Part shown: one piece after another, positions 29,853 through 64,000 of the stretch | How the letters are laid out: the number at the start of each line of letters is the position of its first letter | Position numbering within the stretch: the first letter of the stretch is position 1 | Origin: Arctopsyche grandis | Taxonomy: Eukaryota > Arthropoda > Insecta > Trichoptera > Hydropsychidae | Reading direction: 5' to 3' | NCBI RefSeq assembly: GCF_051622035.1 | Contig: NC_135366.1 | Span: 5,239,001 to 5,303,000 of the forward strand | Length of the DNA stretch: 64,000 nt | Made by a program: the position numbers and the translations under genes | Notes under the pieces: model-generated | Told to the model about the DNA's origin: nothing | The model's database searches: none | What the model saw: the letters and a program-made list of their open reading frames with translations, nothing else

Positions 29853-29876
29853 TATTCATATCTTGAATCTGGGTCT

Positions 29877-30262
29877 ACGTGACTTGACAGAATGTTAAAT
29901 TACAGAAAACGCAAATATCGGAAGGCAAAGATCGAAAATCGAAAGATCTTAAGTCGAAAGATCAAAAAAAATGGTGCATGGTAAACGGTACATACTCACT
30001 TAATTTGCGCGAGCAGGATACAACAGGAACAAGAGGAACATGCTTTTCCTCCCGTATTCTGCGCGCGCACATTAACACGGGAGGAAAAGCATGTTCCTCT
30101 TGTTCCTGTTGTATCCTGCTCGCGCAAATTAAGTGAGTATGTACCGTTTACCATGCACCATTTTTTTTGATCTTTCGACTTAAGATCTTTCGATTTTCGA
30201 TCTTTGCCTTCCGATATTTGCGTTTTCTGTAATTTAACATTCTGTAAAATCACGGTGACCGC
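29877..30262. mobile_element. palindromic MITE, reverse-oriented sister of 4472-4825
   Basis: Arms from about GTGAC-CAGAATGTTAAATTACAG to the centre are nearly perfect inverted repeats. The loop (CTGCGCGCGCACATT) is the reverse complement of the loop in the 4.5-kb copy, showing opposite insertion. Confidence 0.82.
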
Positions 30263-42651: not shown

Positions 42652-43118
42652 TCCACGACATAAGGTCCAAAGCTATAAGATCCAACGACAAGGGCACCAC
42701 GAAAGAAGAACCACCCGATAGAATGCCCACCTGCTAAGTGATCCAGACAGTAAAAAGCCCAGATAATAAAACGTCCAACTGAAAAACATCCACCCTTTTA
42801 AAGGGTCCAGCCACAAAAAGTCCGAAAACATAATATAAAACATAAACAAAGTAATAATGTTTAATAAAACGCTCCATATTTACATAAATCGGATATCGAG
42901 TCAATTTGACTCGATACTAATAATAATGTTGGATTAAATCATTGCAGCACCTGACATCGAGTCAGGACCGCAAACATTTATTTTTAAGCAGGGTTTCTAA
43001 GCCGGGCAGCAATTTTTTTTTTCAAATAGTTTTTTTTAGCAATCCAAACTTTTACGTTTGCAGAGCTTCTGAATAATGGTTCGCAAATCGTCATTATGAA
43101 ACTTTGCATTTGATAATA
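42652..43118 (-). repeat. block inverted relative to 54575-55415
   Basis: This block, 5' of zinc-finger copy A, is the reverse complement of sequence 5' of copy B: the GTCC-ending minisatellite, GAGTCAATTTGACTCGATA, GCAGCACCTGACATCGAGTC and ATCGTCATTATGAAACTTTG all appear in reverse order and orientation. Both blocks abut the duplicated segment at GTTGACGCAGTGGCG. Confidence 0.82.
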
Positions 43119-43647
43119 AAGTTGACGCAGTGGCGAGTAACACCGGTCGACCGATCGTCCTGGTCGCCCAATCGTCACGTACCATCCGTTTACCGTAACA
43201 GAGAGTGAATTGCCAATGGGCATTTCACCCACAAGCTAAGGGAATAAGAAAGGAAAGAAGAAATGCGCCGAATGTTCCGAGGAGGACAGATAGGTGCATG
43301 TAAATTGGAAAAAAGGTTTAATTGCATTGAAGAGAAAAATTCTGGGTTTCTCATAGAAAACTTCAACATTATCATTCATGTCTACAAGTCAACTATAAAC
43401 GAATCAGTAATCACGAAGTAGTAATAACTTTTCTTGCCAGCGTACAAATGCCAGGATTTTTAAGGAGAAATAATGGATGGCAGCCCTGATTTTGACACCA
43501 AAGATGTAGAAACCCCACTCGAGTCCGTCACCGGCGATACTTTCATATCAGTCTGTCAAGACCGTGAACTCCAAACGTCTAAGCGTCTACACCTAGGAAT
43601 CCATTGTCCACTCTCCAGGAGTTTGCGCTTCTCCTGCCCAAGTAGCG

Positions 43648-46600
43648 ATGGAGTGCAGACTTTGTCTCTGCTCTGCCCCAGCAGGGTCCTTCGTCTCCAT
43701 CCATGACGACCCTCATCCACCGCGTTTGGTGCAGCGCATTTGGACCTGCTGTTAGCTGCGGGTCAGTCACTTTGCACTTGAACCATTGCTATTGATAATT
43801 CGCTACTCCTCGTAATCGCCAATACGTTTTACATTTGCAGGTTAGGAAAGGAGACCATCTGCCAGATTTGATATGCCTTTCTTGTGTCAACAATCTGGAA
43901 TTGTTCGAAAGCTTTCGAAACGCTTGTTTTCAGAATGACTCAACGTCGAGGGTGGAATTAGACAAGTATTTGAGAGTCAAGCCAGAGGAAGTTTTACTAG
44001 AAGATTTAATATGGGAAGATGAGTTGGATGCTGATAGACCACCCAACATTTCACCAGAAGATGATGAGGTTAGCAAATAGGTTTCTAGTGCTTTAGATCG
44101 ATTCCAAACGAAACACTCAATTAATCGAAAATATAAATGCACATGTAAACACACAATACACATGTTTAGTTGAATAACGTTCGGTTTATTTTTTAGACCC
44201 CAGGAAGAAAAATTACTTCGAGAGATAATGTGGCAGCAATAATAGACACCAATAGACAAATTCTGGAGGAAGAATTACCATTTCGAAAAGCTTTAGATAA
44301 GACGTGCTCTACAAATTCTGAATTGGACCATAAAATAGATTTCCAAGACAAATTGTTAACTCATAAAAACAATCTTTTGACACAGAATGACTCGGATACT
44401 CGAAGAAAGCTGCATGATTGTGACATTTGTTCAAAATCATTTACTAGGAAATATGATCTTAGTATACAAATAGGTATTCATACTGGGGTAAAGCCACACA
44501 AATGTAACATTTGTTCAAAAACATTTGCTACGAAGCAAAATCTCAGTGCACATATGGATATTCATACGGGGCTAAAACCACACAAATGTAATATTTGTTC
44601 AAAATCATTTACTATGAAATATCATCTTAGTAGACATGTGGGTATTCATACTGGGGCAAAGCCACACAAATGTGACATTTGTTCAAAAACGTTTACCAAG
44701 AAACAAAATCTCAGTACACACATGGGTATTCACACTGGGGTAAAGCCACACAAATGTGACATTTGTTCAAAAACATTTACTACGAAAAAAATTCTTAGTA
44801 GACATGTGGGTATTCATACTGGGGTAAAGCCACACAAATGTAACATTTGTTCAAAAAAATTTACTACGAAGCAAAATCTCAGTGCACATATGGATATTCA
44901 TACGGGGCTAAAACCACACAAATGTGACATTTGTTCAAAAACATTTACTATGAAGCAAAATCTCAGTGCACATATGAATATTCATACGGGGCTAAAACCA
45001 CACAAATGTGACATTTGTTCAAAAACGTTTACCAAAAAACAAAATCTCAGTACACACATGGGTATTCACACTGAGGTAAAGCCACACAAATGTGACATTT
45101 GTTCAAAAACATTTACTACGAAAAAAAATCTTAGTAGACATGTGGGTATTCATACTGGGGTAAAGCCACACAAATGTAACATTTGTTCAAAAACATTTAC
45201 TACGAAGCAAAGTCTCAGTACACACATGGGTATTCATACGGGGCTAAAACCACACAAATGTGACATTTGTTCAAAAACGTTTACTATGAAACAAACTCTC
45301 AGTACACATATGAGTATTCATACTGAGGTAAAGTCATACAAATGTAACATTTGTTCAAAAACATTTGCTACGAAACAAATTCTTAGTAGACATATGGGTA
45401 TTCACAATGGGGTAAAGCCACACAAATGTAATATTTGTTCAAAATCATTTACTATGAAATATCATCTTAGTACACATGTAGGTATTCATACTGGGGTAAA
45501 GCCACACAAATGTGACATTTGTTCAAAAACGTTTACTATGAAACAAAATCTCAGTACACATATGAGTATTCATACCGGGGTAAAGCTACTCAAATGTGAT
45601 ATTTGTTCAAAAACATTTACTACGAAACGAAATCTCAGTATACACATGAGTATTCACACTGGGGTAAAGCCACACAAATGTGACATTTGTTCAAAAACAT
45701 TTACTAGGAAACAAAGTCTCAGTACACACATGGGTATTCATACGGGGCTAAAACCACACAAATGTGACATTTGTTCAAAAACGTTTACTGTGAAACAAAA
45801 TCTCAGTACACATATGAGTATTCATACCGGTGTAAAGCCACTCAAATGTGATATTTGTTCAAAAACATTTACTACGAAACGAAATCTCAGTATACACATG
45901 AGTATTCACACTGGGGTAAAGCCACACAAATGTGACATTTGTTCAAAATCATTTGCTACGAAACAAATTCTTAGTAGACATATGGGTATTCACAATCGGG
46001 TAAAGCCACACAAATGTGACATTTGTTCAAAAACATTTACTACGAAAAAAATTCTTAGTAGACATGTAGGTATTCATACTGGGGTAAAGCCACACAAATG
46101 TAACATTTGTTCAAAAACATTTATTATGAAATATGATCTTAGTACACACATGGGTATTCATACGGGGCTAAAACCACACAAATGTGACATTTGTTCAAAA
46201 ACGTTTACTATGAAACAACATCTCAGTACACATATGAGTATTCATACTGAGGTAAAGTCATACAAATGTAACATTTGTTCAAAAACATTTGCTACGAAAC
46301 AAATTCTTAGTAGACATATGGGTATTCACAATGGGGTAAAGCCACACAAATGTAATATTTGTTCAAAATCATTTACTATGAAATATGATCATAGTACACA
46401 TGTGGGTATTCATATTGGGGTAAAGCCACACAAATGTGACATTTGTTCAAAAACGTTTACTAGGAAACAAAATCTCAGTACACATATGATTATTCATACC
46501 GGGGTAAAGCCACTCAAATGTGATATTTGTTCAAAAACATTTATTACGAAACGAAATCTCAGTATACACATGAGTATTCACACTGGGGTAAAGCCACACA

Positions 46601-47010
46601 AATGTGACATTTGTTCAAAATCATTTGCTACGATACAAACTCTTAGTAGACATATGTGTATTCACAATGGGGTAAAGCCACACAAATGTAATATTTGTTC
46701 AAAATCATTTACTATGAAATATCATCTTAGTAGACATGTGGGTATTCATACTGGGGTAAAGCCACACAAATGTGACATTTGTTCAAAAACGTTTACCAAG
46801 AAACAAAATCTCAGTACACACATGGGTATTCACACTGGGGTAAAGCCACACAAATGTGACATTTGTTCAAAATCATTTACTTCGAAATATGTTCTTAGTA
46901 GACATTTGAGTATTCATTCTGAGGTAAAACCACACAAATGTGACATTTGTTTAAAATCATTCCTTAGAAAATATGAACTCAGTGCACATATGGTTATTCA
47001 TACAGGGTAA
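43648..47010 (+). CDS. ZAD C2H2 zinc-finger protein, copy A (31 fingers; premature stop in ZAD exon)
   Basis: Exons 43648-43761, 43841-44068 and 44197-47010 join in phase by GT-AG introns. ZAD cysteines are in CRLC (3-6) and CLSC (50-53). Codon 36, at 43753-43755, is TAG where copy B has CAG, so a full-length protein (1051 residues) would need read-through or another start. The last exon is open for 938 codons with 31 fingers of 28 residues (HKCDICSKTF-linker type, TGVKP links). The first finger has Q in place of its first His. ZAD is a dimerisation domain; fingers bind DNA in the nucleus. The first Met follows an in-frame TAG at 43594. Finger helices differ at -1, 2, 3 and 6. It is either a recent pseudogene with a preserved last exon, an allele, or a gene using an alternative first exon. 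Confidence 0.85.
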
Positions 47011-47089
47011 AGCCACACAAATGTGACATTTGTTCAAAAACATGGAAGTAACAAGGTCTTAGTGCACATATGGATATTCACACGGTTCA

Positions 47090-47165
47090 GTGATTACTAG
47101 TCATATGTGGACCAGTAATAGGCTAACCGGTCGCTCTAGATCGGTCACCCGTCACACTAGGTTTT
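47090..47165 (+). repeat. truncated GGTCAC minisatellite leader after copy A
   Basis: Matches 57800-57870 and 40840-40905 (GATTACTAGTCATATGTGGA, GATCGGTCACCCGTCACAC), then jumps to the GAATAAATAGGTG segment. The tandem part present in copy B is absent. Confidence 0.75.
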
Positions 47166-47169
47166 GAAT

Positions 47170-48057
47170 AAATAGGTGTTGGCTGCTAAGATATGTTTTT
47201 TTTTTATGAAAATATTTATGAAATAAAACTTCATGAAATGAAGATACACTTATATTCAAGAAAAGATGGCAATTAGTAGTACATACTTTATCTAAGAAAC
47301 ATTACTGTTTGAAAATTTTCATTTGGACATACATATTTGTGTTTTCATTTCATACATACGTGTTTTCATTTCATACTTATGTACCGAATAATCGATTTAA
47401 AATAAAACAATAATTCAGATGTTCAACGAAAATGTTTGTATTGAAAGAATGAATTAGAGGGTATTGAATATTTCGGTATCAGTCCGATGACAAACTTATA
47501 CCAATCATTTGTATGTAAAATGGACAAAGCGTTATTAAAACTATCGCGTTATAGACGATCTACATATGTGTTCAAGAATATGTTTATTTATAGTGTGTTG
47601 AAAACATAATAAATAATTGTATTTACTGTGCATAAAAGTTTATGTTTTTAAAATTTATCCCTGTAATTTAGATTTAAGTATATATTTTAGAATTTATTTG
47701 AAGCTGCATATATCGTACAATTATAATTTAGTAAATATAACTCAAGTTAAGTTTAATTAATATTGATGACATTCAGGACAAGTAATATTATATTAGCAAA
47801 ATATGATTCTATTTGCCTATGTCTAATGCTAGGTAAACGTGCAAGGCACGAAGATTCAGAAGTAGTGGGTTGATCTATTGCATCTATGTACATAAGTCAA
47901 TAATATCAAATACCCTTTAAAGTGATGTCTCAACTACGTGATAATTTCTCTATTTTCATGATATTAAGCGCACGCAGATATATGATTCGTCATTTTTGTA
48001 GCATTTGGAATGTTATATTTCGTTTCACAAAATCTATATACAGCTGCAAACTTCTTA
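47170..48057 (+). other. 3' flank of zinc-finger copy A, no further gene
   Basis: AT-rich DNA nearly identical to 58180-59055. It probably contains the 3' untranslated region (several AATAAA words, for example near 47220 and 47610). The shared short frame at 47922 is not supported as a gene because it diverges after the duplication edge. Confidence 0.5.
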
Positions 48058-48144
48058 CGCGCGTAAATGGCAGACTTGCCATCTCGCTTGCTCCAAGGCT
48101 TCTAGTGTACGCTCCCGGAAACTGAACGAAAGTCTTTCTTAGCA

Positions 48145-48575
48145 GTTACCGCTCGAATTAGTACGTTTAGATAAAAATAAAATATATTAAGATAGAAAAC
48201 AAATCCTTATGAAAGTGGTAAAATAAAAAACTGACAAAACAAATGCAAAATAGCACAGAGAAAAAATCCGTAAAAAAATATATATTTTTGACTTTTAAAA
48301 TTCGCTAGAAAATTAATTAGAAGTATTTTAAAACAATAAAAAATCACAATCAATAGAAAAAACATCTGACTATTGATTCCAATTCCACTTTGAGCACAGC
48401 TATACTAGATTTTGAATTAAAGACCGCAAAAGCCAAAAATCTGTAAAATGTGCGCATTTTTTAAACGCTCAACAAAAATCATTATCATATTCGAATTCAG
48501 TGGGTCAAACTTAGTAAAGATTGGTTATAATCTGCTCTGGTAACTCAAAAACGTGACTTTGTTGCTCAGTGTAAT
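48145..48575 (+). repeat. dispersed repeat, copy of 35595-36060
   Basis: Same order of landmarks as in deltex intron 3, with scattered substitutions and a short deletion after AAACGCTCA. Confidence 0.75.
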
Positions 48576-48579
48576 TAAT

Positions 48580-49810
48580 AGGTTATTTACGTAAAGCATC
48601 CGACTCAAACACAAAGGTGAAATTTACAGAACTGCCACTACATGAAAACGTTTGGATTCTTTCAAGTGTTGCATTTGTCAATGGCATTGAGATTGACTTA
48701 ATGCGAGTATCTAAAAAAATGTGTCGATTTGAAAATCTGAATGATATACATTTTTTTTTCAATTTTCCCAAATTTTCCTAGGGAAAAAAACCGCAGTTTA
48801 TTCCCGGGAAAAAACCGGATTTTTTCCCGTGGACACATCTCTAGACACAATCAGAAGCATTTGAAGAAGGCGTAGAGAATTTTTTTAACGTTGGAATTGA
48901 TTATTTGGGAAAATGGTGGAAATAAGATGTTTTTTCATGGATGCTTCTCCATGATGTACCCGAATGGGAACACGTTGAAAAAACTATTGCATATTTAATT
49001 GAAACAGGTATTAGCGCTTCACTACGCTGACCGCGTTCTGCGCAAGTCGAGCGTACAGTGTACACAAAGCAAAGCCGTGTTCAACTCATACGATTTTTTA
49101 GCTCGCAATTTTACCCATGTAAAATTCGGCACACTTCCAATTAACCCTTTTAAACGAAAAAAAAATAGTGTGGTCAGAGCACTATCCCAATAAACATATT
49201 TCAATATAAAATAGTATTAACAGTGGGAAAAAATCCCAAGTGAAAATACGTACATACTTTTGACTTTTGATTTGAACTGGACGAAGCTAAAATGTACTAC
49301 AGATGACAGATAAAATACCCAACTCTAGATACCAATATTCATTTTAAACAGAAAATTGACAGATTTCGAGACATCGACCGAACAACACCAAGCTATAGGA
49401 AAATCGCGCGATTTAAAAAACATATATCTCCGAATCTCGAGCCAATCAACATTCTATAAGAAAAGTCATATCTCGTCTCTTCACCATTTTTTGTGTCGAA
49501 CAGTGTAATGAATGTTTTTTTTCCTCGAAACTAACAATTATTATGAACTTCAAATTTCTATGAAAGATCAAAAAAAATGTGTATTGGATTCAAAATTTCT
49601 TTGAACAACAAATATAATAGTAAGTAGTAAGTAAAATGAAAGTAGTTTCAATAACCTACCATGTCCTTTTAGAATTTTGGCAAATTAGGTTTTCCATAAT
49701 TTGTAGTTTTCGCTCGTTCTTCTTGATAGTACATAGCTGATTTAAATCATTTAATCATTTGTGCGTATTCAGGATCTGCCAGAATCTGGCTTTGATATTT
49801 GTAATAATAA
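48580..49810. other. AT-rich stretch without recognised genes
   Basis: A GGGAAAAAA-CCGCAGTTTATTCC-GGGAAAAAACCGG pattern at 48775-48830 looks like part of an old repeat. Nothing else was recognised. Confidence 0.4.
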
Positions 49811-49812
49811 TA

Positions 49813-49814
<2 letters not shown>

Positions 49815-49887
<73 letters not shown>
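49815..49887. repeat. (TA)n microsatellite, left part
   Basis: About 36 TA units, continued at 50533-50588 on the other side of a hAT element. Confidence 0.93.
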
Positions 49888-49890
<3 letters not shown>

Positions 49891-50529
49891 TGGCGGACTG
49901 GCCATACAAGCGAACATGCCCGATGGCATGTGGGCCCCACTATCTGTTAGAAAATATGGGCCCTCAGTAAAATTAAATAACTTTTTAACTATTTCACGTG
50001 TGTAAAAATTTATAGGATATTGCACTTTGGGACCTAAAGTTTGGGTATTTCAACAAAACAAATTTCTTACGATATACACAAATAACTAATATCTGCTTTA
50101 ACAGCCCAAGGATCGGTTAACTTTTTTTATTAGGCTCGAAATGTAAGTTTCAACATTTGCGTGGGCCCTTTTGCTGGGCCCATTTCTAACCTCAATATTA
50201 TGTATATACCAATACCTATGTAACAACTACCTACTGAAATAAAAATGGGAATAAACAAATTTCCGTGAATAATATAAACTGAATTGCCTAAAACAATTTT
50301 GATAGGACGATTCATCATCAACCAGCGATTTAAATTTACTTCATACTTTCAAAATAACATTTGATTATACTTTTGAAAATTTTATTTTTTTTACCATTGA
50401 TTTTTAGCGTGATGGAAATAAGAAAATTTTGTTATATCCCCGGGGGGGGGGGGGGATAATTTTTTTTGGAGGCCCTGGGTGGGCCCCCTTTGACTCCTGG
50501 CATGCACTAATTTCAGTCCCAGTCCGCCA

Positions 50530-50532
<3 letters not shown>
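49888..50532. mobile_element. 645-bp hAT element inserted in a (TA)n tract
   Basis: Ends CAGTGGCGGACTGG and CCAGTCCGCCACTG are perfect inverted repeats. TATATATA flanks both sides. GGGCCC-rich words occur in both subterminal regions (GTGGGCCC at 49930 and 50160; GGGCCC at 50480). No transposase remains. Confidence 0.88.

Positions 50533-50588
<56 letters not shown>
50533..50588. repeat. (TA)n microsatellite, right part
   Basis: Continuation of the tract at 49815-49887. Confidence 0.93.
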
Positions 50589-50590
<2 letters not shown>

Positions 50591-51075
50591 ATAATGATAT
50601 TATGAAAGTTCATAATGTTTATAATTATTTTTATGCAAAATAAAATATATATTTACATTTTTTTTTTATATAAATGTTCCGTGATCGAGATTTTAGTGAC
50701 TTGCGCGAAATCGCTTTTTGCGGAATAATCACCGAATCGTTTAAAAGAGCGGCGTGGAGCCAGAAAGTTGTCGATTGTGCCTGTAGATGAAGAAGGACTG
50801 GGAACAACTTGTATTCGACCAGTGCATACAGAAGAGGATTTACCATTTATATAACTGGTGTAGGAATGTTAGCTTAATTACATACGTATGCAGTTGTCAT
50901 TTTTAAAAACCGTTTTTGTGAATATGATAGAAAAATAGGGGCGTCTCAATTTGAATTTATTTTAACTTGAGGACAATTTCTCATTTCATGAGAAATTTAC
51001 AAAAAATTGAACCTATAAATTTCAGGACTCTATAGTTAAAGATGTACTTTTAACTACTGTGGGAATTTCAATAAG

Positions 51076-51798
51076 CTATGTTGAATGTGTAGGAATATAG
51101 TACAACTTGTACAATTCCGATCCAAAACCAGTGATCTCATAAATTTCACAACAATACACAAGTCTTACGATGGCATCATCATCGCTCACATGGATACATT
51201 GTATCTGCAGTGACCGCATTCTTCTTAATTTTTGTAATAAAATATTCCTATCTACTGTCTCGAACGCTCGCTTAAAATCTAGAAAAACTGCTCCAACAAC
51301 CATGCTAGATTCATCCATCGCCTCCATCCAATCAGAAACCACCAATTGGATAGCGGTTTCTGTTGAATGTTTCACTCTAAATCCAGACTGTTCCACAACC
51401 AAACAATCATTTATACTAATGAACTCTTTCAATTGAATCATAACGATTTCCTCCAGCATCTTCTCAACAATTGGTAACATATTGATGGGCCTCATTTCAC
51501 TGGCTTTATGTGTGCCAGTAACCTTTGGTACCGGTACAATAGTAGACACCTTCCATGCATCCGGGACGGATCCCACTTCTAACGATTCATTTATTAATTT
51601 CAGTAACTGAGGTCCAACCATGTCCCAAGTGTTGATTAAAATATCTAGAGTCAATCCATCCATACTAGAAACTGATTTCATGCCCTTCAATACACCATTT
51701 AATCTCCCCATTTCCACTAATTTAAACCTATCAAACTTATTTAAACCCAAATTAATATCATCATTCACACTTATAAATGTAATAATGTAATATTCCAT
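51076..51798 (-). pseudogene. LINE reverse-transcriptase fragment
   Basis: A 240-codon open frame on the minus strand contains SSMDGLTLDIL, RPINMLPIVEKMLEEIV (RT motif 2a region), VVEQSGFRVKHSTETAIQLV and GAVFLDFKRAFETVDRNILL, which holds the first catalytic aspartate of reverse transcriptase (FLDFKRAFE). The frame then leaves the family (after KLRRM) before the FADD motif, so the enzyme is truncated. The protein type is a CR1/jockey-like non-LTR element and may be the same family as the fragments at 1.4 and 12.2 kb. The endonuclease and thumb domains are missing. Confidence 0.82.
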
Positions 51799-51804
51799 CG
51801 ACTA

Positions 51805-52560
51805 TTAATTAATTGTTTCGTAACTATTAATTGTTTTTGTTTCGAGCGACCCGGACCCGGCCTTCAAAACCCGCCGGGTCCGGGTATTTAAAATTTCGAG
51901 TATTAACGTAAAAATTCAAAATGATTTTCAGTTGATACATAGAAAATATCCAAATATGTATGTGTTATTTATAGAGTCTGTGTGTACATGATTCATATCC
52001 ATACATATATATGTATGACCTTATTTGTTCGAGAACTTGATTTTACATGTGACTTCTGAGAAAACGATACGTACTGAAATTTCGCTAAATGTAGAATTTC
52101 ACTCATATACGGCGTTCATATTTTTAAGTTAATTTCAATAGGTCCCAAAGTAAAACAAAGTTCATTGATTGAAAAATCCTCGGGTTAAATAATAACGTAG
52201 CAATAAGGTATTTTAAATTTAAAAATCGAAAGCATATTGATAATTTTAATAATGAAATCGTTATAAAACGTTAAACATAATATGTACATCAATATACAAT
52301 GATAAAAATAAACATAAAACGTAATAGTTATATATAATAGATGATCTTAAAAACAATACAATTGATGATAAAACCCATGTCAACGATACATTAAATTATT
52401 GGAATTTCATTCGTTTTAAGCCATGAATTTCCTATGATCACGACATTTGCTACACTATACTATTATATTTAGAATATAATCGATTAAATTATTTTCATTT
52501 CTTTGAATATTTTTAGTGAAGTATGTTGGTTGAAATGCACGATAATTTAAATCAATGGTC
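51805..52560. other. AT-rich stretch without recognised genes
   Basis: A short GACCCGG-CCGGGTCCGGGT palindromic patch at 51848-51886 is the only notable feature. Confidence 0.4.
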
Positions 52561-52569
52561 AATAAGTAT

Positions 52570-54353
52570 CAGTGGTGGCTCGTCCTAATGGGCTGCCGGG
52601 CTGCAGCCCCTCCTATAAAATTCTAAGATATATGTTTAATAATACATTTAATATTTTATTTATTAATGATATTTTTTTTATTAGTTGGATGGACGAACTA
52701 TTGGGGCCTTCTACAAAGTAAATATTACTTACAATATCACCCATATCCAAAAGGGTGATATTGTAAGTAATGTTGACCGTTTCGAAGACCCCACTAACTT
52801 GTATGGTGACAGATGAATTAAAATGTTGCTGTACTGGCTGTAAAGTGTTACAGCGCCGCGCTGAACGCTGCGCAGCCCGGAGTTTCGGAACGAGAAAGAG
52901 AAAGAGCTATTTGCAACTGCAGATAGCTCTTTCTCTTTCACTCACTCTGCCGTTTTGGGCTGGACAGTCGGCAGCCTTCGCCTGTTAAACGACATTCATC
53001 TGTCAGTTTGTGTAAGATTTCGCGCGCTTGATCTTACATTTGATTAGTTGAATCGCACGATCACAGCTTTATTCGTTTTCGTTACTCTTAATTGGTTGTG
53101 TACGAGCCCTCATCAAATCTTCGGTGAGTCGTTTTCATTTTGATAACAGCAAACTTTTTTCAAATCTGTTTAACTTTTTCTCGTAATTTTTATTTAAATA
53201 TATTAAGATTTTTTTTCTTTTAAAAATGGAAGAACAAAAGAATTCAGTAAAATATTTACAAAATTTGCACTTTTCGCGACTAGAACTTACCGAAAAAGTC
53301 GCTATAAAAACATTAGGCTGCCTCACGCCCAATTTAATTATTTCACAGCCTGCAACTAGTAGATCTTTTAGTTACTCGCGAAAATTTAATCCAGACATTT
53401 ATAAAAAATACAATTGGTTAACGAGATGTACAGAAAAAAACGCGTTATTTTGTTATCCGTCTTTTGTTTGGAGGAGTCGCCAGGCGAAGCATCTTGGACG
53501 AAAACAGGAGTTATTGACTTTAAACATTAACTTTAAAGTCAATGACTTTAGACATTTAAACGATAAATTTAAAAACACGAGGGAAGTGTCGAACACTTAA
53601 AAAATGTGTGTAATCTCACGATTTTGGGAAGCTTGTCGGCGGGAAATAGATAAGCATAACGAAAACGTCAAAAAAATCGGGATGTTTTATTTAAAATTAT
53701 TGATTGCGTTAAATTTTGCGGTAAATTTCAAATGCCAATGAGGGGACACGATGAAACAGATAATTCAAAAAATCTAGGAGTTTTTCGGGGGCTTCTAGAA
53801 TATTCACAAAATTTCGACGATTCTTTAAAAAAACATTTTCAAACTTCTTCGGTTTTTAAAGGGACATCAAAAACTATTCAAAATGAACTTTTAGATTGTA
53901 TTTTGAAAGTGTGTAGGGAACAAATAAGTGCTGAAATAAAAAAAAGCAAATTATCTAGCTGTTATGGCAGATGAAACAACCGATGTATCGATGCATTGTC
54001 AACAGGGTAATGTTTTTCGTTACGAATTAGGGGGTTAAGTTTTTAAAAGGTTTTGGGTTTTTTTTTAATCCGCGTCGCGAAACCAGCAAGAACGAATTTT
54101 TTTTAGCAATCTTACTGGAGTACCAGCGTATTTTTCGAAATCTTCATCGCGTTTGGACGCACCCCTTTAATGGGTGGTGAATTTTGCTAGTTTTTTTTTC
54201 AATAAATCTACTTAAATCCACATGTAAGTGGTCGTACGCCAAAAATTGTGCTTATTTTGTCCTGTTATGACATGATAGAATAATTATGGTGACATTTTTT
54301 AGACATCTTTTCAGTGCAGCCCCGCCACTAAAAATTATCACGAGCCGCCACTG
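52570..54353 (+). mobile_element. hAT element with target duplication ATAAGTAT
   Basis: ATAAGTAT lies at 52562-52569 and 54354-54361. Ends CAGTGGTGGCTCGTCC and, inverted, CAGTGGCGGCTCGTGA. GGGCTGC-GGGCTGCAGCCCC follows inside the left end and CAGCCCCGCC inside the right. An internal inverted repeat (ACTTACAATATCACCC / GGGTGATATTGTAAGT) lies at 52725-52775. The element carries the start of a transposase gene but has lost most of it. Confidence 0.93.
53226..54045 (+). pseudogene. hAT transposase N-terminal part, broken
   Basis: The frame from ATG 53226 encodes a TTF-type zinc-finger region (YNWLTRCTEKNALFCYPSF) for 124 codons to a stop. A second frame (53732-53974) encodes PMRGHDETDNSKNLGVFRGL and QNELLDCILKV. 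After a one-frame shift, VMADETTDVSMHCQQGN appears, which contains the first catalytic aspartate of ZMYM/ZBED-like hAT transposases. The rest of the catalytic domain and the C-terminal dimerisation region are deleted. Confidence 0.85.
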
Positions 54354-54399
54354 ATAAGTATACAAATGTATACGCGTACATTTTAGATATGAATAGCAG

Positions 54400-55430
54400 A
54401 ACCCATGAAGACGGGCTTGCGAACCTTGGTCTAGAATCCGTTCATACGTAAGATTTTACTCTTTTAAAGAAATATTTTTTGCGGAACTCAGTTGAGAAAC
54501 TCTAAAAAAGTAGGATTTGAAAACATAATTTTTGGGGAAAAAATCGAAAACCAAAGAATCTCCCATTTTTTATCAAATGCAAAGTTTCATAATGACGATT
54601 TGCGAACCTTAGTTCAGAAGCCCTGCATACGTATAAGTTTGGATTGCTAAAAAAAAAAAATTGCTGCCCGGTTTAGAAACCTTGCTTAAAAATAAATGTT
54701 TGCGGTCTTAGTTGAGAAACCCTGCTTGCGTAATATTTCAAGGCACAAAGAGTATCAAATAAATTTATTCCCATTTATAAAATTATCATGTAGATATGGC
54801 CGACAATTTCAATACAGTAATTTCGAAAACGCATTTAAAATTTATTGAAAAAATTGATTTTGCGCTGAATAGATTGGCAGCACCTGACTCGATGTCAGGT
54901 GCTGCAATGATTTAATCCAACATTATTATTATATTTCTTAGTTCAGAAGCTCTGCAAACGTAAAATTTTGGATTGCTAGAAAAAAACTATTTGAAAAAAA
55001 AAATTGCTGCCCGGCTTAGAAACCCTGCTTAAAACTAAATGTTTGCGGTCCTGACTCGATGTCAGGTGCTGCAATGATTTAATCTAACATTATTATTATA
55101 TTCGGAAATTAATTTTAAAAAATTTAAACCCGTCGAATATTCAATCGAGTATCGAGTCAAATTGACTCGATATCCGATTTATGTAAATATAGAGCGTTTT
55201 ATTAAACATTATTACTTTATCTATGTTTTATATTATGTTTTCGGACTTTTTGTGGCTGGACCCTTTAAAAGGGTGGATGTTTTTCAGTTGGACGTTTTAT
55301 TATCTGGGCTTTTTACTGTCTGGATCACTTAGCAGGTGGGCATTCTATCGGGTGGTTCTTCTTTCGTGGTGCCCTTGTCGTTGGATCTTATAGCTTTGGA
55401 CCTTATGTTGTGACACGGTCTCGTCGCCCA
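54400..55430 (+). repeat. repeat block 5' of zinc-finger copy B
   Basis: A loose array repeats a unit built of TTAGTTCAGAAGCYCTGC, CGTA-AAGTTTGGATTGCTA, AAAATTGCTGCCCGG, TTAGAAACC-TGCTTAAAA and TGTTTGCGGTC (at 54600, 54940 and partly 54420). CTGACTCGATGTCAGGTGCT also occurs twice (54886, 55052). 54575-55415 is the inverted counterpart of 42652-43118. Confidence 0.75.
55238..55412 (+). repeat. degenerate 15-16-bp tandem array (GGAC-start units)
   Basis: Successive units start TGGACTTTT, TGGACCCTTT, TGGATGTTTT, TGGACGTTTT, TGGGCTTTTT, TGGATCACTT, TGGGCATTCT, TGGTTCTTCT, TGGTGCCCTTG, TTGGATCTTAT, TTGGACCTTAT. The spacing is regular but the sequence weakly conserved. The inverse array is at 42655-42832. 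Confidence 0.75.
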
Positions 55431-55956
55431 GTTGACGCAGTGGCGAGTAACACCGGTCGACCGATCGTCCTGGTCGCCCAATCGTCACGTACCGTCCGTT
55501 TACCGTAACAGAGAGTGAATTGCCAATGGGCATTTCACCCACAAGCTAGGGAATAAGAAAGGAAAGAAGAAATGCGCCGAATGTTCCGAGGAGGACAGAT
55601 AGGTGCATGTAAATTGGAAAAAAGGTTTAATTGCATTGTAGAGAAAAATTCTGGGTTTCTCATTGAAAACTTCAACATTATCATTCATGTCTACAAGTCA
55701 ACTATAAACGAATCAGTAATCACGAAGTAGTAATGACTTTTCTTGCCAGCGTACAAATGCCAGGATTTTTAAGGAGAAATAATGGATGGCAACCCTGATT
55801 TTGACACCAAAGATGTAGAAACCCCACTCGAGTCCGTCACCGGCGCCACTTTCATATCAGTCTGTCAAGACCGTGAACTCCAAACGTCTAAGCGTCTACA
55901 CCTAGGCATCCATTGTCCACTCTCCAGGAGTTTGCGCTTCTCCTGCCCAAGTAGCG

Positions 55957-57723
55957 ATGGAGTGCAGACTTTGTCTCTGCTCTGCTCCAGCAGGGTCCTT
56001 CGTCTCCATCCATGACGACCCTCATCCACCGCGTTTGGTGCAGCGCATTTGGACCTGCTGTCAGCTGCGGGTCAGTCACTTTGCACTTGAACCATTGCTA
56101 TTGATAATTCGCTACTCCTCGTAATCGCCAATACGTTTTACATTTGCAGGTTAGGAAAGGAGACCATCTGCCAGATTTGATATGCCTTTCTTGTGTCAAC
56201 AATCTGGAATTGTTCGAAAGCTTTCGAAACGCTTGTTTTCAGAATGACTCAACGTCGAGGGTGGAATTAGACAAGTATTTGAGAGTCAAGCCAGAGGAAG
56301 TTTTACTAGAAGATTTAATATGGGAAGATGAGTTGGATGCTGATAGACCACCCAACATTTCACCAGAAGATGACGAGGTTAGCAAATAGGTTTCTAGTGC
56401 TTTAGATCGATTCCAAACGAAACACTCAATTAATCGAAAATATAAATGCACATGTAAACACACAATACACATGTTTAGTTGAATAACGTTCGGTTTATTT
56501 TTTAGACCCCAGGAAGAAAAATTACTTCGAGAGATAATGTGGCAGCAATAATAGACACCAATAGACAAATTATGGAGGAAGAATTACCATTTCGAAAAGC
56601 TTTAGTTAAGACGTGCTCTACAAATTCTGAATTGGACCATAAAATAGATTTCCAAGACAAATTGTTAACTCATAAAAACAATCTTTTGACACAGAATGAC
56701 TCGGATACTCGAAGAAAGCTGCATGATTGTGACATTTGTTCAAAATCATTTACTACGAAGCAAAATCTCAGTGCACATATGGATATTCATACGGGGCTAA
56801 AACCACACAAATGTAATATTTGTTCAAAATCATTTACTATGAAATATCATCTTAGTAGACATGTGGGTATTCATACTGGGCTAAAGCCACTCAAATGTGA
56901 TATTTGTTCAAAAACATTTACTATGAAACGAAATCTCAGTATACACATGAGTATTCACACTGGGGTAAAGTCACACAAATGTGATATTTGTTCAAAATCA
57001 TTTGCTACGAAACAAATTCTTAGTAGACATATGGGTATTCACAATGGGGTAAAGCCACACAAATGTAATATTTGTTCAAAATCATTTACTTCGAAATATC
57101 ATCTTAGTAGACATGTGGGTATTCATACTGGGGTAAAGCCACACAAATGTGACATTTGTTCAAAAACGTTTACCAAGAAACAAAATCTCAGTACACACAT
57201 GGGTATTCACACTGGGGTAAAGCCACACAAATGTGATATTTGTTCAAAAACATTTATTACGAAACGAAATCTCAGTATACACATGAGTATTCACACTGGG
57301 GTAAAGCCACACAAATGTGACATTTGTTCAAAATCATTTGCTACGATACAAACTCTTAGTAGACATATGTGTATTCACAATGGGGTAAAGCCACACAAAT
57401 GTAATATTTGTTCAAAATCATTTACTATGAAATATCATCTTAGTAGACATGTGGGTATTCATACTGGGGTAAAGCCACACAAATGTGACATTTGTTCAAA
57501 AACGTTTACCAAGAAACAAAATCTCAGTACACACATGGGTATTCACACTGGGGTAAAGCCACACAAATGTGACATTTGTTCAAAATCATTTACTTCGAAA
57601 TATGTTCTTAGTAGACATTTGAGTATTCATTCTGAGGTAAAACCACACAAATGTGACATTTGTTTAAAATCATTCCTTAGAAAATGTGAACTCAGTGCAC
57701 ATATGGTTATTCATACAGGGTAA
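55957..57723 (+). CDS. ZAD C2H2 zinc-finger protein, copy B (12 fingers; intact)
   Basis: Exons 55957-56070, 56150-56377 and 56506-57723 join by GT-AG introns in phase 0 into 519 residues. The ZAD occupies about residues 1-80: CRLC at 3-6, VSIHDD, LVQRIWTC, and CLSC at 50-53, a zinc-coordinating dimerisation domain of arthropod zinc-finger factors. An acidic stretch follows (LLEDLIWEDELDADRP), then twelve 28-residue C2H2 fingers from residue 187 to the end. All twelve keep C2H2 ligands and TG[VL]KP-type linkers. The first finger is a fusion of the first half of copy A's finger 1 and the second half of its finger 2. Compared with copy A, the Ala codon GCC/GCT in the ZAD exon differs silently, which supports this frame over the overlapping upstream frame. 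Function inferred: nuclear sequence-specific DNA binding. Confidence 0.9.
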
Positions 57724-57800
57724 AGCCACACAAATGTGACATTTGTTCAAAAACATGGAAGTAACAAGGTCTTAGTGCACATATGGATATTCACACGGTT
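57724..57800 (+). pseudogene. remnant of one more zinc finger after the stop
   Basis: Just after the stop, one frame over, the DNA still reads KPHKCDICSKTWK, stop, QGLSAHMDIHT. One missing G in GGGTAAAG (GGGGTAAAG elsewhere) creates the stop. The same remnant follows copy A at 47011-47085. Confidence 0.8.
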
Positions 57801-58195
57801 CAGTGATTACTAGTCATATGTGGACCAGTAATAGGCTAACCGGTCGCTCTAAATCGGTCACCCGTCACACTTAACTGATTCCAAGAAAACTGATCACACC
57901 CAAAAATTGGTCCCGAGAAAACTGGTCACACTCAAAAATTAAAAATTGGTCGCATGATAACTGGTCACAGAAAAAAAGGTGCTAGTTTAGTATGTGGTCT
58001 ACCTGCACATATCTACTTTAGTATGCGATTTACCTTTACGTTTTTACTTAAATTTGCGATCTCAGTTCCCGCGTGTGACACAGACTGAATAATACCGACC
58101 ATATCAACCTAATCTTAAATGAATAGGACCAACCTTAACTTAACCTAACCTATCCTGACCTATAAATAAATAAGTGCTGGCTGCTAAGATATGTT
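57800..58195 (+). repeat. GGTCAC minisatellite plus dispersed repeat, present only after copy B
   Basis: 57800-57975 is the minisatellite family of 40832-41040. 57985-58195 is the repeat also found reversed at 3690-3915. In copy A about 285 bp between CCGTCACAC and AATAAATA are absent. Confidence 0.8.
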
Positions 58196-59055
58196 TTTTT
58201 TTTATGAAAATATTTATGAAATAAAACTTCATGAAATGAAGATACACTTATATTCAAGAAAAGATGGCAATTAGTAGTACATACCTTTTCTAAGAAACAT
58301 TACTGTTTGAAAATTTTCATTTGGACATACATATTTGTGTTTTCATTTCATACATACGTGTTTTCATTTCATACTTATGTACCGAATAATCGATTTAAAA
58401 TAAAACAATAATTCAGATGTTCAACGAAAATGTTTGTATTGAAAGAATGAATTAAAGGGTATTGAATATTTCGGTATCAGTCCGATGACAAACTTATACC
58501 AATCATTTGTATGTAAAATGGACAAAGCGTTATTAAAACTATCGCGTTATAGACGATCTACATATGTATTCAAGAATATGTTTATTTATAGTGTGTTGAA
58601 AACATAATAAATAATTGTATTTACTGTGCATAAAAGTTTATGTTTTTAAAATTTGTCCCTGTAATTTAGATTTAAGTATATATTTTAGAATTTATTTGAA
58701 GCTGCATATATCGTACAATTATAATTTAGTAAATATAACTCAAGTTAAGTTTAATTAATATTGATGACATTCAGGACAAGTAATATTATATTAGCAAAAT
58801 ATGATTCTATTTGCCTATGTCTAATGCTAGGTAAACGTGCAAGGCACGAAGATTCAGAAGTAGTGGGTTGATCTATTGCATCTATGTACATACGTCAATA
58901 ATATCAAATACCCTTTAAAGTGATGTCTCAACTACGTGATAATTTCTCTATTTTCATGATATTAAGCGTACGCAGATATATGATTCGTCATTTTTGTAGC
59001 ATTTGGAAAGTTATATTTCGTTTCACAAAATCTATATACAGCCGCAAACTTCTTA

Positions 59056-60720
59056 TGGTCCGTACGCACCAAACCAACGACGATTTTGGGCCAACTTTTA
59101 AAACCAGTAGCGTACAAAATATCGAAATAAAAATTAAATAAAAAAATTGAAATTAAATATCAAAATTAAGCTAACGAGCGAGATTGAGCTCAAATTAGAT
59201 CATCGTTGATGTTTTCGAATTACAACAATGTTTTGAATTACGACGATACGCATTACAACCAGAGAAATATTATAATTTCTCTGATTACGAGCGAAAAAAA
59301 CCTTTTTGTTATTTCTTATTAAAAGTCGTCACGATATACTACTGTTTCCGCCGCCGATGAGACATTAAACAAAAAAACTGTCGGTGATTTGTCAAAGGGT
59401 TTTTTTTTCTTTCGTCGAAATAAAATTAATAATCACACAGTCGTGTTCTTTTCGTGTTCGTGTACAGACGTTGATTACGTGTGTGGCGATTTGGGCAACG
59501 AAATTGTAACAATTAAAAAAATAAAAATAAATTTGTAATATATAATTATGTGTTTGTTCTAAGTATATAATAATGGCATCAGAACGCATAAGTGAAGTAA
59601 TAACGATTGAAAAAAAAATTATGGACATTTTGACCACAAAAACTAACAGTATATCAAATGACAATAAGACATTTTTAATTACATCAGTAAAAAAATTTGT
59701 TGAATATATTTGTGAAAATGAAAATAATGATAAGGAACAATTTTTGGATGTAATATGTGAATTAAGAAGTGAATTTAAAAATTTGAAAAACAATATACAA
59801 AAAGACATAAATATATTAAAAAGCAACAGTGAATTAAACATTTTAAAAAGGGGTGTAAATAAGAATGAAAATAATTTATTTTATGCAAATGCACTTAAAA
59901 ATAATAATAAAGACGTAACAATAATTGTTCCAAAAAAAATTCAAGAAACGGACAAAACAAAAGAAGAGTGCAAAAATGTAATAAAACCCAAGGAACTAAA
60001 AATAGGAATACAAGGGGTTAAAAAAATCGGTAAAGGGGGCATTGCTGTAACGTGTAACAGTGCACAGGATAGTATTAAATTAATAAAAGAAGTAGAAAAT
60101 AAATTAGGGGAGAATTACAATGTTAAAAGAGGGGAATTAAAAAATCCCAAAATTAAAATTGTAGATATGTCGGAGGAACTTACAAGTGAACAGTTGGCTG
60201 AGTGTTTGATGAATCAAAATCAAGAAGCTATAAATGATGGTGAATTGAAGGTGTTAAAAATATGGAAAAGTAGAAAAAATAATAAATATAATGCGATAGT
60301 GGAAGTAGATTGCAATACATTTAAAAGATTAATTGAAGATGGAAAAATAAATATAAATTGGGATAGATGTAGGGTTTTTGAAGAAATTAATATTCTAAGA
60401 TGTCTAAATTGTTACGGATTTAATCACAAAGCGGTAGATTGTAGAAACAAGGTGACATGTGCGAAATGTGGAGAAGAAGGGCACAAAAGCGAGGGATGTA
60501 ACAATAAAATAATAAAATGTATTAATTGCTTTAAGTGTAATAATAAATTAAAATTAAATTTGAACACGAATCACGGACCGTTGGACACTAAGTGCAGTGT
60601 ATATAAAAGAAATATAGAATTAATGAGAAATAGAATTAAGTATAATTCACCGTCGGTCGTTGCCGATCGATGACCTATTCGCACCGGTATTAGCTCTTCC
60701 ATAAATAATATCTAATTAAA
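59056..60720 (+). mobile_element. LINE 5' region with intact ORF1 and no ORF2
   Basis: Copy B's duplicated sequence stops at 59055 and the element begins (GGTCCGTACGCACCAAACCA). About 515 bp of leader precede ORF1 at 59573. After the ORF1 stop at 60673 there is no endonuclease or reverse-transcriptase sequence; by about 60900 a different LINE's ORF1 begins. The element is therefore 3' truncated or a shortened derivative. Confidence 0.7.
59573..60673 (+). CDS. LINE ORF1 (Gag-like RNA-binding protein with CCHC knuckles)
   Basis: One uninterrupted frame of 366 codons starts ATGGCATCAGAACGC. The first 110 residues are charged and helical in character (a possible coiled coil). The central part (about residues 140-270) resembles the nucleic-acid-binding fold of retroposon Gag proteins (KIGIQGVKKIGKGGIAVTCN). 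Two CCHC zinc knuckles follow at about residues 275-310: CLNCYGFNHKAVDC and CAKCGEEGHKSEGC. A third is degenerate (CINCFKCNNK). This arrangement is known from ORF1 of R1/LOA/I-type non-LTR retrotransposons; the protein packages the element's RNA. The frame has no lesion, which suggests a young insertion, but the polymerase ORF2 is missing here. Confidence 0.88.
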   Translation: MASERISEVITIEKKIMDILTTKTNSISNDNKTFLITSVKKFVEYICENENNDKEQFLDVICELRSEFKNLKNNIQKDINILKSNSELNILKRGVNKNENNLFYANALKNNNKDVTIIVPKKIQETDKTKEECKNVIKPKELKIGIQGVKKIGKGGIAVTCNSAQDSIKLIKEVENKLGENYNVKRGELKNPKIKIVDMSEELTSEQLAECLMNQNQEAINDGELKVLKIWKSRKNNKYNAIVEVDCNTFKRLIEDGKININWDRCRVFEEINILRCLNCYGFNHKAVDCRNKVTCAKCGEEGHKSEGCNNKIIKCINCFKCNNKLKLNLNTNHGPLDTKCSVYKRNIELMRNRIKYNSPSVVADR

Positions 60721-60928
60721 AGTACCTAAACGGTCTTAAACAAAATCTGTCAACAAAGTTTGTTCCTGTAGTGCTATTTTTTAATTCGTACTTATAAAAT
60801 ATACTCAATATACTCATAATAATCACATAAAATATCATTTCAAGTTTCAAGTGGGTAGTCCGTACATTCTCGTACGCAGAGTGAATTTCATAGATTGTCA
60901 ACCTTTAGTTCAATTAAATTTGGCAATC

Positions 60929-61564
60929 ATGCAGTGTTGCGCATCTTGTGAAACGAAATTTTCTAATGGTGTTCAATGTGGTATTTGTAAGAGGCACTAT
61001 GATTTTGATTGTGCCAACATTACGGAAGGCGGCTACAATAGATTGGGAGCTATGGAAAGGGCTGCATGGAAGTGTCCACGATGCCGTAATCCACAAAGTT
61101 CTCAGTCTTTGACCGAGTCACCTTCGCCGTCATTTAATACACTACTTAAGGATATCCTTGATATCAAACGTAGCATTTCATGCCTGCCGTCGCTTGCAGA
61201 AGACATAAAAACGCTAAAAACTGATATTTGCAACCTCAAAGCGACATGTGAATTTAACAGCTCAAAGATTATTGAGGCTGAAAATAGAATAAGTGCAGTA
61301 GAGGATAAAGTAAAAGACATTTACAGGGATCTATGTACTGAGAAAATCACTACCAATGATATCAAAGCTCGACAAAATAGCTTTGAAACCAGATCGCGTA
61401 GTAATAATATTGAATTGCAAGCTGTACCCGAAAAGCGCACTGAGAATGTAATAGATATTTTCAAAAAACTTTGCAAGACTATCTCGGAGCCGATGGATGA
61501 CAACTTAATATTATCCTGCCACAGAACTGCTAAATCAAACAAGAACAGTGACCGCCCTCGGAAC
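60929..61564 (+). pseudogene. LINE ORF1, PHD-finger type, cut by a hAT insertion
   Basis: From ATG 60929 the frame encodes a PHD-like zinc finger (CCASCETKF, CGICKRHYDFDC, WKCPRCR; C4HC3 order). A coiled-coil segment follows (LLKDILDIKRSISC, EAENRISAVEDKVKDI), then the start of the RNA-binding part (RSNNIELQAVPEKRTENVID, LSCHRTAK). This order is that of ORF1 in CR1/jockey-like insect LINEs. Translation from the Met gives about 212 residues before CAGTGGCG of the inserted transposon begins at 61565. The remainder would lie beyond the transposon, outside the window. Confidence 0.82.
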
Positions 61565-64000
61565 CAGTGGCGTATATTGGGTGTGTGCTAGGTGTGCGGC
61601 GCACACCCGTGAAAACCAAAGACCACATAAAGTAGTATTTTAATACAAAATAATGTGTTGTTGTATGAACAGGCATTGATGTGTATGGTGTATTTACCGC
61701 GTGCGCTAAATGTATGGTGTATGGTGTGGTGTGCAGTCTGCAGCGTGTTGTGTGATGTTAGATGTAGTTTGTGCGCCGCGACGAGAGAATACCTATGCCG
61801 TGCAGCAAATTGGTGGGTTTGGTTGGAGTGTGCAGGCGGATATTCGCTTGTATAGGTTTGTTCGCGATATTAAGACGTACGGTGTGCTACGACTTCAGAG
61901 CACCGCGCACCACTCGGCAATTGACCGAATGCGATGCGACACGTGGTCTCGTACTTTTTCGCACATTCGTATTTTTATGGTCATATCTCAGTCATACCTC
62001 TAATAACTAATAATGGCTAACAGTGTTCAAGACATTTTAACTATTCCGTTTTCAAATAGAAGTTTTGAGATAAAATTAAAAATAATTAAATATGGGAAAC
62101 CGTGTCCGTCTCTTCCAAATTTATCCAGTTTGCATAAAGAAAAAACAAAAGTTTACACTAGACATTTTTGCGTTTCAAATTATAAAAAATTCGAATGGAT
62201 TACAGGCTGTGAAATTCGATCCAAACTTTTCTGCTGGCCATGTTTATTGTTCTCCAAAGATATTAATGTGTGGAACAAAGAAGGATTTGCTGATCTCAAC
62301 CATTTGACAGCAGCACTGAAGAAACACAAAGGATCGCATGCACACGTTCAATCATTTCTTTCCATACAAATGTTTGGCAAACAACGAATCGACGTATTAA
62401 TTGACAGTCAACGTAAAGCCGAAATAAGTCGACATAATGAACAAGTAAATAAAAATAGAGATGTTTTAAAACGAATTATTAACGCAATAATCTATCTAGG
62501 AAAACAAGAACTGTCCCTGCGAGGTCACGACGAGTCATGTAATTCCGTAAACAAAGGCAATTACATTGAATATCTAAATGCTCTTCGAGAATATGATTCT
62601 GTTTTAGATACTCATTTAAATACTGCTACTACCTTTCGTTGTACTTCTCCAAGTATACAAAATGACATAATCGAAGCAATCGCTCATGTTATTAAAGTTC
62701 ATATAAAAAATGAAGTAGAGTCAGCAAGTTTTGTTGCTATTATTCTCGATGAAACTTCAGATATAATGACAAAATCACAGCTCTACGTTTACGTTTTGTA
62801 TGTAAAGGCAATGTACATGAACGGTTTATTAGTTTTACAGACGTTAGTGCTGATAAAACATCTAATGGTCTATTCCGTCACGTGGTGAACATAGTTGAAG
62901 AATTTAAAATTCAAGACAAATTGGTTGGACAGACTTATGATGGAGCAAGTGTAATGAGTGGACACGTAAATGGTTTGCAATCCAAAGTCCTCAATGCTTA
63001 TCCTTTTGCTCTTTTTACACACTGTTATGCTCATGTATTGAATTTAGTATTGCAGCAAGGTCTTTCTGATATTAAAGAAAGTAAATCATTTTTTCAAACT
63101 TTAAATGGATTGTCTACATACTTTTCAAAATCTTCCAAAAGAGTATTCGCTTTACAGGAATTTGTGACAAAAAGACTTCCCTCTGTAGCACCCACAAGGT
63201 GGAATTTTACATCTCGTTTAAGTAGCACAGTACAACAATACAGAAGTCAATTTACAGATTTTTTTCGACATGTTATAGAAAATTGTGAATTATGGGACAC
63301 AGATACTGTTATAAAAGCACGAGGGTTTTTAGGCTTTTTAGAGGATTTTCAAACAATTAAACTTCTTCAAATTTTTTCAAAACTGTTTGGAATAACTGAT
63401 GTTTTGTATAACATTCTTCAATCTAAATCTTCGGACGTTTTATATTGTTGTAAAAAAATTAATCATGTTTTGCAGCAACTGAAATACGAAAGGGATAATA
63501 ATTTTGAAATGTTATGGAATAATTATTTAAATGAAAAAAATGATGATCATGATCGTAGGCCACAAAGATTAAAAAATTATTCAGAAGTAGAAGATAAAAC
63601 TTCATTTCGTCAATTATATTTCAAAATAGTTGATAGCATAATCGCACAAGTCGAATGTAGATATTCTTCACTTTCCAAATTAGAATATTTCCACCTTCTT
63701 TGTAATGATAAATATGACGAATATAAAGAAAATTTTCCAAATGTTTTAATTAATAAATTAAAAGATTTTTATGGATCACTGTTTGATTATATTCGATTGA
63801 AAAACGAACTCATCGTGCTATATTCCAGCTCTGAATTTTCAGAGAAACCTGTTCATGAATTAATACAATTCATGACAAAAAATAACCTCGAATCTGGTTT
63901 TAAAGAGGTGTTTAAGCTGGGAGAATTAATATTAACGTTACCAAGCAGTACAGCTTCAGCAGAACGTTCTTTTTCGGCGCTGAAAAGAATAAAAACTTGC
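61565..64000 (+). mobile_element. hAT element, nearly full length, running off the right edge
   Basis: The left end CAGTGGCGTATATTGG follows CTCGGAAC (61557-61564), the expected 8-bp target copy. A GTGTGCGGCGCACAC palindrome lies just inside. The transposase gene begins at 62013. The right end is outside the window. Confidence 0.88.
62013..64000 (+). pseudogene. hAT transposase (ZMYM1-like), one frameshift, 3' end outside the window
   Basis: From ATG 62013, residues about 45-115 form a TTF-type zinc finger (FEWITGCEIRSKLFCWPCLLF; LKKHKGSHAH). The catalytic RNase-H-like core follows: first Asp in VAIILDETSD (about 62735-62765), second in QTYDGASVMSG (about 62930), HCYAHVLNLVLQQG, and PTRWNFTSR. 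The C-terminal dimerisation motif LILTLPSSTASAERSFSALK is near 63930-63995. One base is missing near 62807 (the frame changes between YVK and the following NVHERFISFTDVSADKTSN). Otherwise the second frame is open from there to the window edge. Known role: cut-and-paste transposition, acting in the nucleus. It is the best preserved transposase in the window and may be the source type for the CAGTGGCG-ended MITEs, but the internal sequences of those MITEs do not prove this. Confidence 0.9.

Follow-up and report, generated by a model that had tools for sequence, protein, structure and literature searches.

How can two neighbouring zinc-finger genes that are about 1% apart come to differ by exactly 19 fingers, and which of the two has changed? 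The question is raised by a stretch of 64,000 nucleotides from Arctopsyche grandis (Trichoptera, Hydropsychidae; contig NC_135366.1, positions 5,239,001 to 5,303,000), hereafter the window, which corresponds to C12:5239001-5303000 in a genome of 475.7 Mb in 189 contigs. Of two families searched as possible markers of Lepidoptera, chorion had no match, in this genome or in any control genome, and gloverin had one, at E 2.6e-5, which is above the cut-off of that family. The window carries two tandem members, copy A and copy B, of a large family of genes encoding an N-terminal ZAD and an array of C2H2 zinc fingers (ZAD-ZNF genes). The array comprises 31 units in A and 12 in B. In our judgement the probable answer is that units were exchanged in register inside the arrays, that the line leading to B lost fingers, and that B is a working gene whereas A is probably becoming a pseudogene.

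The two genes lie in duplicate blocks on the forward strand, 43121-48057 for copy A and 55431-59055 for copy B. In a self-BLAST of the window, the A block matches 55430-59055: the left segment (43120-45448) pairs with 55430-57756 and, to the right of the array, 47167-48057 pairs with 58165-59055 (98.765% identity over 891 bases). To the left of the array, A and B are separated by 13 substitutions and one indel in 1291 ungapped columns. The duplication is a recent tandem one, with a divergence of about 1% between the blocks. Such a divergence is allele-like and would also fit an artefact of assembly, with two haplotypes of one gene set in tandem or one of the arrays collapsed. We regard this as very improbable, as the homology ends sharply on both sides with different flanks beyond, the window does not contain any N and, when the left part was searched in the genome, 99% was reached only by the A and B loci among the 59 matches listed (the next one stands at 89%), all of them located on large contigs. 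Moreover, the finger units differ from one another, so that a collapse would be unlikely to yield the in-frame mosaics described below.

Both copies have a three-exon structure with matching splice sites. The first exon encodes the first half of the ZAD, the second encodes the other half and an acidic linker, and the third encodes a short spacer and the fingers. This predicted structure is backed by equivalent exons in paralogs of the same genome. In copy A, the exons are located at 43648-43761 (MECRLCL...IWTCC*LR), 43841-44068 and 44197-47010 (937 open codons, TAA at 47008-47010), and the array of 84-base units extends from 44413 to 47007. In copy B, they are located at 55957-56070, 56150-56377 and 56506-57723 (405 open codons, TAA at 57721-57723), with the array at 56722-57720. 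Exons 1 and 2 of B match zf-AD (PF07776; E 2.2e-12, 47.5 bits for a cut-off of 28 bits). At E 0.01, these exons match no other Pfam family, KRAB included, and the listed exon-3 matches (23 for A, at least 25 for B) do not contain a KRAB model either. A comparison of the ZAD with solved structures gave one match, 7pok, with an E of 0.4, and was not used. The N-terminal ZAD with its two CxxC pairs is thus present in B and absent from A as translated, owing to a TAG after residue 35. Pfam C2H2 models match both arrays, and all four ligands are found in the 12 units of B. From these domains, B most likely encodes an ordinary ZAD zinc-finger DNA-binding protein, in which the ZAD would mediate contacts between proteins and the fingers would bind DNA. 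A fossil finger, read by eye from the sequence, lies past the stop behind both arrays (47011-47090 in A, the end being approximate; in B, stop and fossil finger together span 57721-57800). At the end of the array in both copies, the usual linker spelling GGGGTAAAG reads GGGTAAAG, an apparent one-base deletion; the loss of this base accounts for the TAA and for the out-of-frame fossil finger.

The exon-3 frames of 937 and 405 residues differ by 532 codons, i.e. 19 x 28, and the 28-codon spacing is unbroken throughout both arrays, which differ by whole units. As for complete fingers, the count in A is 30 rather than 31, because unit A1 (44413-44496), which reads ..LSIQIGIH, has lost its first His (His to Gln). 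The last six units are nearly the same in the two genes, B7-B12 differing from A26-A31 at 2 of 504 bases (0.4%). Unit B1 is the same as A1 as far as roughly base 32 and continues as A2, without any mismatch; taken at full length, B1 is just as far from A6 and A7 as from A2 (6 differences each), and A2 was chosen as the partner because of the unit that follows it (A3). Within A, an 11-unit block repeat relates A11-A15 to A22-A26 (10 differences in 420 bases, 2.4%). Several units are identical to each other (A15 and A18, A12 and A23, A4 and A29), and A26 differs from A15 at one base. Within B, B3-B6 and B7-B10 are one four-unit block present twice (10 differences in 336 bases, 3.0%). The initial annotation of the window had proposed the recent duplication, the gap of exactly 19 units, the match of the last six fingers, the fused first unit of B and the higher-order likenesses in A (11-13 with 22-24, and 14-15, 17-18 and 25-26 among themselves); all of these hold, whereas its 31 fingers for A are correct as a number of units only.

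A copying model accounts for the whole B array as a mosaic of A units, namely A1, A2-A3, A17-A19, A27-A29 and A26-A31, i.e. five in-phase segments joined by four switches and mismatched at 7 of 1008 bases. As homologous exchange predicts, the junctions inferred in this way lie within units and keep the phase. In-register exchange inside the arrays is thus well supported, as judged from the register and the junctions. With a stricter switch cost, B becomes A1, A2-A3, A25-A29 and A26-A31 (three switches, 11 mismatches). Both paths amount to a net loss of 19 units. A unique path was rejected, as the stricter cost leads to a different one and as, after shuffling of A4-A25, 20 of 200 trials fitted B equally well or better; the order of the middle units of A is not needed for the fit. 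The initial annotation had placed an unequal exchange in the array after the duplication: the exchange itself is well supported, but neither its timing nor its direction is shown.

The direction of change can be approached through two classes of units of A: an e class (A5, A9 and A20) and an f class (A11, A14, A17, A22 and A25). Their nearest B unit differs at 7-8 of 84 positions, where the divergence of the flanks would lead one to expect about one difference per unit, and even the best chimera obtainable from B units by a single crossover remains 4-5 differences away from the e class and 6-7 from the f class. Among 20 sampled genes (19 with units), the nearest other unit shows 6-8 differences from the f class and 4-5 from the e class, the latter in the gene L048. 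When A11-A14 was searched against its own genome (at least 293 matches, of which the best candidates were scored), A22-A25 reached 98% and B 93%, and no match outside A and B exceeded 89% among those listed. The f class therefore probably predates the duplication and was lost by the line leading to B, as it is far from the B units and no match listed beyond the two genes is closer than 89%. These sequence comparisons suggest that B probably lost fingers, rather than A merely gaining 19.

Several observations weigh against such a loss. With 11 and 13 fingers in the next relatives (the L040 pair), parsimony points to an ancestral length of about 12, and A11-A15 and A22-A26 show one synonymous difference for about 81 synonymous sites, so that part of the length of A may be no older than the duplication itself. 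With the exact repeats within A, these data are what would be expected if an ancestor of about 12 fingers was duplicated and A then gained 19. We find this expansion rather unlikely, since the e and f classes are far from all B units and, for the f-class block, the matches listed beyond A and B go no higher than 89%. In addition, the e class is closer to L048 than to B, and the genome-wide search was made for the f-class block and not for the e class; the case against an import from another gene is thus weaker for the e class, whose comparison is limited to the sampled genes, and donors of the extra fingers of A may lie among unscored or masked sequence. Another possible history, less probable than loss in the B line but deserving serious attention, is an allelic origin, in which an unequal crossover of chromosomes whose arrays already differed in length created the duplicate, no later exchange being needed. 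Allelic diversity in insects can reach about 1%, i.e. the divergence of the flanks, and the blocks repeated inside the arrays (2.4% in A, 3.0% in B) diverge more than the flanks do. However, the last six fingers are just 0.4% apart. We retain the loss of fingers in the line leading to B as the preferred direction.

The initial annotation treated both copies as equivalent genes. This does not stand, as the ZAD exon of A is interrupted by a stop, which the annotation missed. The roughly 293 additional bases of B also escaped it. In exon 1, codon 36 reads TAG in copy A (43753-43755) and CAG in copy B, whose exon 1 is open. Base 43753 is a T in A and a C in B and in both L040 outgroup copies, and the T is therefore derived in A. 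An exon-1 survey of 24 rows, two of which (L033_6693 and L046_6243) were dropped as cut views of L045 and L037, left 22 genes, of which A alone has an interrupted exon 1; this exon is also open in L049 and L050, so that none of the 23 other copies examined carries a stop. As the TAG sits between the two CxxC pairs, the 35-residue product is unable to complete a ZAD, and the 35 residues before it have no Pfam match at E 0.01. As written, A is truncated inside the ZAD. The first in-frame Met after the stop lies in finger 2. A would thus make a fragment of 35 residues, or at best a protein devoid of ZAD and initiated at this Met, and it is probably on its way to becoming a pseudogene; B would make a working 12-finger ZAD protein.

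Two features do not sit easily with decay of A: its frame has stayed open over 937 codons, and change is less frequent at its core positions than at its synonymous sites, although this is not significant for A alone (p 0.13). Copy A could then be functional, either by readthrough of the stop codon (a TAG followed by C), which occurs in insects, or from a transcript that lacks the ZAD, giving a long-array protein without this domain. The exon 2 protein that is the same in A and B, the unbroken array frame and the fact that, outside the array, the TAG is the sole coding-sequence change specific to A would agree with this proposal. Nevertheless, we hold it to be improbable. The 13 substitutions left of the array, polarised by the two L040 outgroup copies, comprise only 5 on the A line (6 on the B line, 2 assigned to neither), so that even a gene without function would be expected to have kept its frame, and there is no Met between the stop and finger 2. 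Unit A24 has lost its core leucine (L to H), in addition to the defect of A1; departures from the core pattern, some of them merely shifted spacing, are however found in 10 of the 20 other genes with counted arrays (and not in B), so that the defects of A1 and A24 alone are no sign of decay.

With finger loss in B and decay of A as the preferred reading, the history of the locus would run as follows. The finger exon would behave as an 84-base minisatellite, changing by unequal crossing over or by copying during break repair, and as such exchange pairs units in register, the reading frame of the array is kept. The common ancestor of A and B would already have had the finger classes now found only in A, and the line to B would have lost them. 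The simplest route to B would involve deletions of 1 + 22 units, or of 1 + 14 + 8 units, and a four-unit duplication, i.e. a net change of -19.

This behaviour extends beyond the locus. The ZAD-ZNF family is large in this genome, exon 2 and the start of exon 3 having at least 178 matches (exon pieces, not genes), and it clusters on contigs C12, C9, C6, C3, C2 and C13, as an expanded and clustered family. In the 22 genes analysed, which were picked by their likeness to copy B, the number of fingers in the open reading frame ranges from 7 to 34 (34 in L044), two cut views and L038 being left out; the array of L038 was missed by the exon-3 match used, and its other match gives 15 units. Some genes carry extra fingers past a stop, such as L035, which has 10 in frame and 14 in total. 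Nine rows diverge by less than 2%, of which three with cut views were dropped; the six remaining pairs all differ in finger number in the open reading frame, by 1, 1, 2, 2, 4 and 19, but they are not independent, as three come from a single trio (L034, L035 and L036). A further pair, L049 (C9:5465000-5470700) and L050 (C9:5427200-5431600), was picked for its unequal match offsets: its members are 97.8-99.0% alike and differ in array length by about 1435 bases, i.e. 17 units and 7 bases, and stops or frame shifts break up both arrays. Against general lability, C9:5419707 and C9:5453242 keep a constant offset of 33,535 bases across paired matches, from which their arrays look equal. The A/B pair is an extreme case of a general lability of array length.

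The units also vary in what they would contact. At helix positions -1, 2, 3 and 6, the pairwise proportion of nonsynonymous differences (pN) at the contact codons exceeds the overall proportion of synonymous differences (pS) in 21 of 21 arrays, and the contact set falls in the top 1% of the 7315 possible four-codon sets in 18 of 21. Close unit pairs were then taken at cut-offs of 4, 6 and 8 differences; for A and B together, the respective contact ratios are 3.2 (p 0.018), 2.6 (p 0.013) and 2.1 (p 0.006). In the 19 other arrays, the same cut-offs give 1.08 (p 0.86), 1.54 (p 0.07) and 2.08 (p 1e-6), so that the tightest one gives no support for positive selection. These ratios are simple counts with uncorrected p values, and recombination between units breaks their independence. 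The core ratio lies between 0.04 and 0.16 in the six counts (p from 0.07, for A and B at the tightest cut-off, to 2e-14), i.e. the core is conserved.

The ends of the A block lie in or beside dispersed repeats. One repeat adjoins copy A (42654-43120, forward strand) and has an inverted relative beside copy B (54566-55412). Several genome copies of this repeat family form inverted pairs, which suggests long terminal inverted repeats. The extra 293 or so bases of copy B (57872-58164), just 3' of the array, face 8 bases in A (47159-47166) and overlap a repeat related to 3688-3893. A repeat of about 120 bases (43195-43314), which lies within the 5' part of both blocks, has at least 37 other matches in the genome. 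Remains of a reverse transcriptase (PF00078; 51079-51801, reverse strand) are found between the two genes. Elsewhere in the window, there are a DDE_Tnp_1_7 fragment (PF13843; 23820-24284, reverse strand), a mobile-element open frame with DUF4371 (62007-62885) followed by a second frame to the end of the window (62007-64000 in all, forward strand), and two near-perfect, mutually related inverted repeats (29872-30260, 96%, and 4465-4824, 91%). Two open frames 3' of copy B (59546-60670 and 60785-61588) have no Pfam match at E 0.01; their zinc-knuckle and PHD-like cysteine patterns suggest first open reading frames of long interspersed elements.

Among known systems, PRDM9 also has an array that behaves as a minisatellite with fast change of the contact residues, but it is a single vertebrate gene with a PR/SET domain and belongs to another family. 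A partial look at the open-access literature turned up no paper on the A/B locus, nor any on changing finger numbers in ZAD-ZNF genes outside the Diptera. The pair offers a clean natural case for the speed and direction of zinc-finger array change: within about 1% of divergence, the last six fingers are nearly kept, a 19-unit gap has opened and a nonsense mutation has struck the ZAD of the long copy. The genes described here share with the ZAD-ZNF genes of Drosophila (Kasinathan et al. 2020, PMC7655104) the N-terminal ZAD, the linker, the C-terminal tandem C2H2 fingers, the clustering and the intron structure. That study reports 91 such genes in D. melanogaster, six of them with a linker and three with a ZNF domain under positive selection, whereas here the contact positions of the fingers vary most and the arrays reach 31-34 units. 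In dipterans, ZNF and transposon copy numbers are given as uncorrelated in another study (PMC10547256).

Change of finger number by internal deletion is already known from primate KRAB-ZNF genes. According to PMC3126818, a change in finger number is the commonest domain change between orthologs, chimpanzee ZNF780B has lost nine fingers (five internal, one internal and three terminal), and duplicates of the finger array only are frequent. There, the effector is KRAB and the ZNF780B difference lies between species; here, the effector is a ZAD and the difference lies between tandem duplicates and is larger. By extension, and as a speculation to which we attach little probability, the ZAD genes would form a KRAB-ZNF-like repertoire in which blocks of 10-20 fingers turn over within about 1% of divergence while contacts diversify, A being a long array without a ZAD that serves intact neighbours such as B as a silent store of fingers, or competes with them as a DNA binder.

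In vertebrate poly-zinc-finger genes (Emerson and Thomas 2009, PMC2604467), as here, variation is concentrated at the helix contacts. That work, which used a codon likelihood model where we used a simple count, describes contact-site selection in several vertebrates and no evidence of it in the expansions of D. melanogaster and A. gambiae. The wider family of A. grandis displays a contact-residue pattern like that of vertebrates, reported there as absent from two dipteran expansions. If this pattern holds under a codon model, the explanation of zinc-finger families by an arms race would gain a usable point of comparison among invertebrates.

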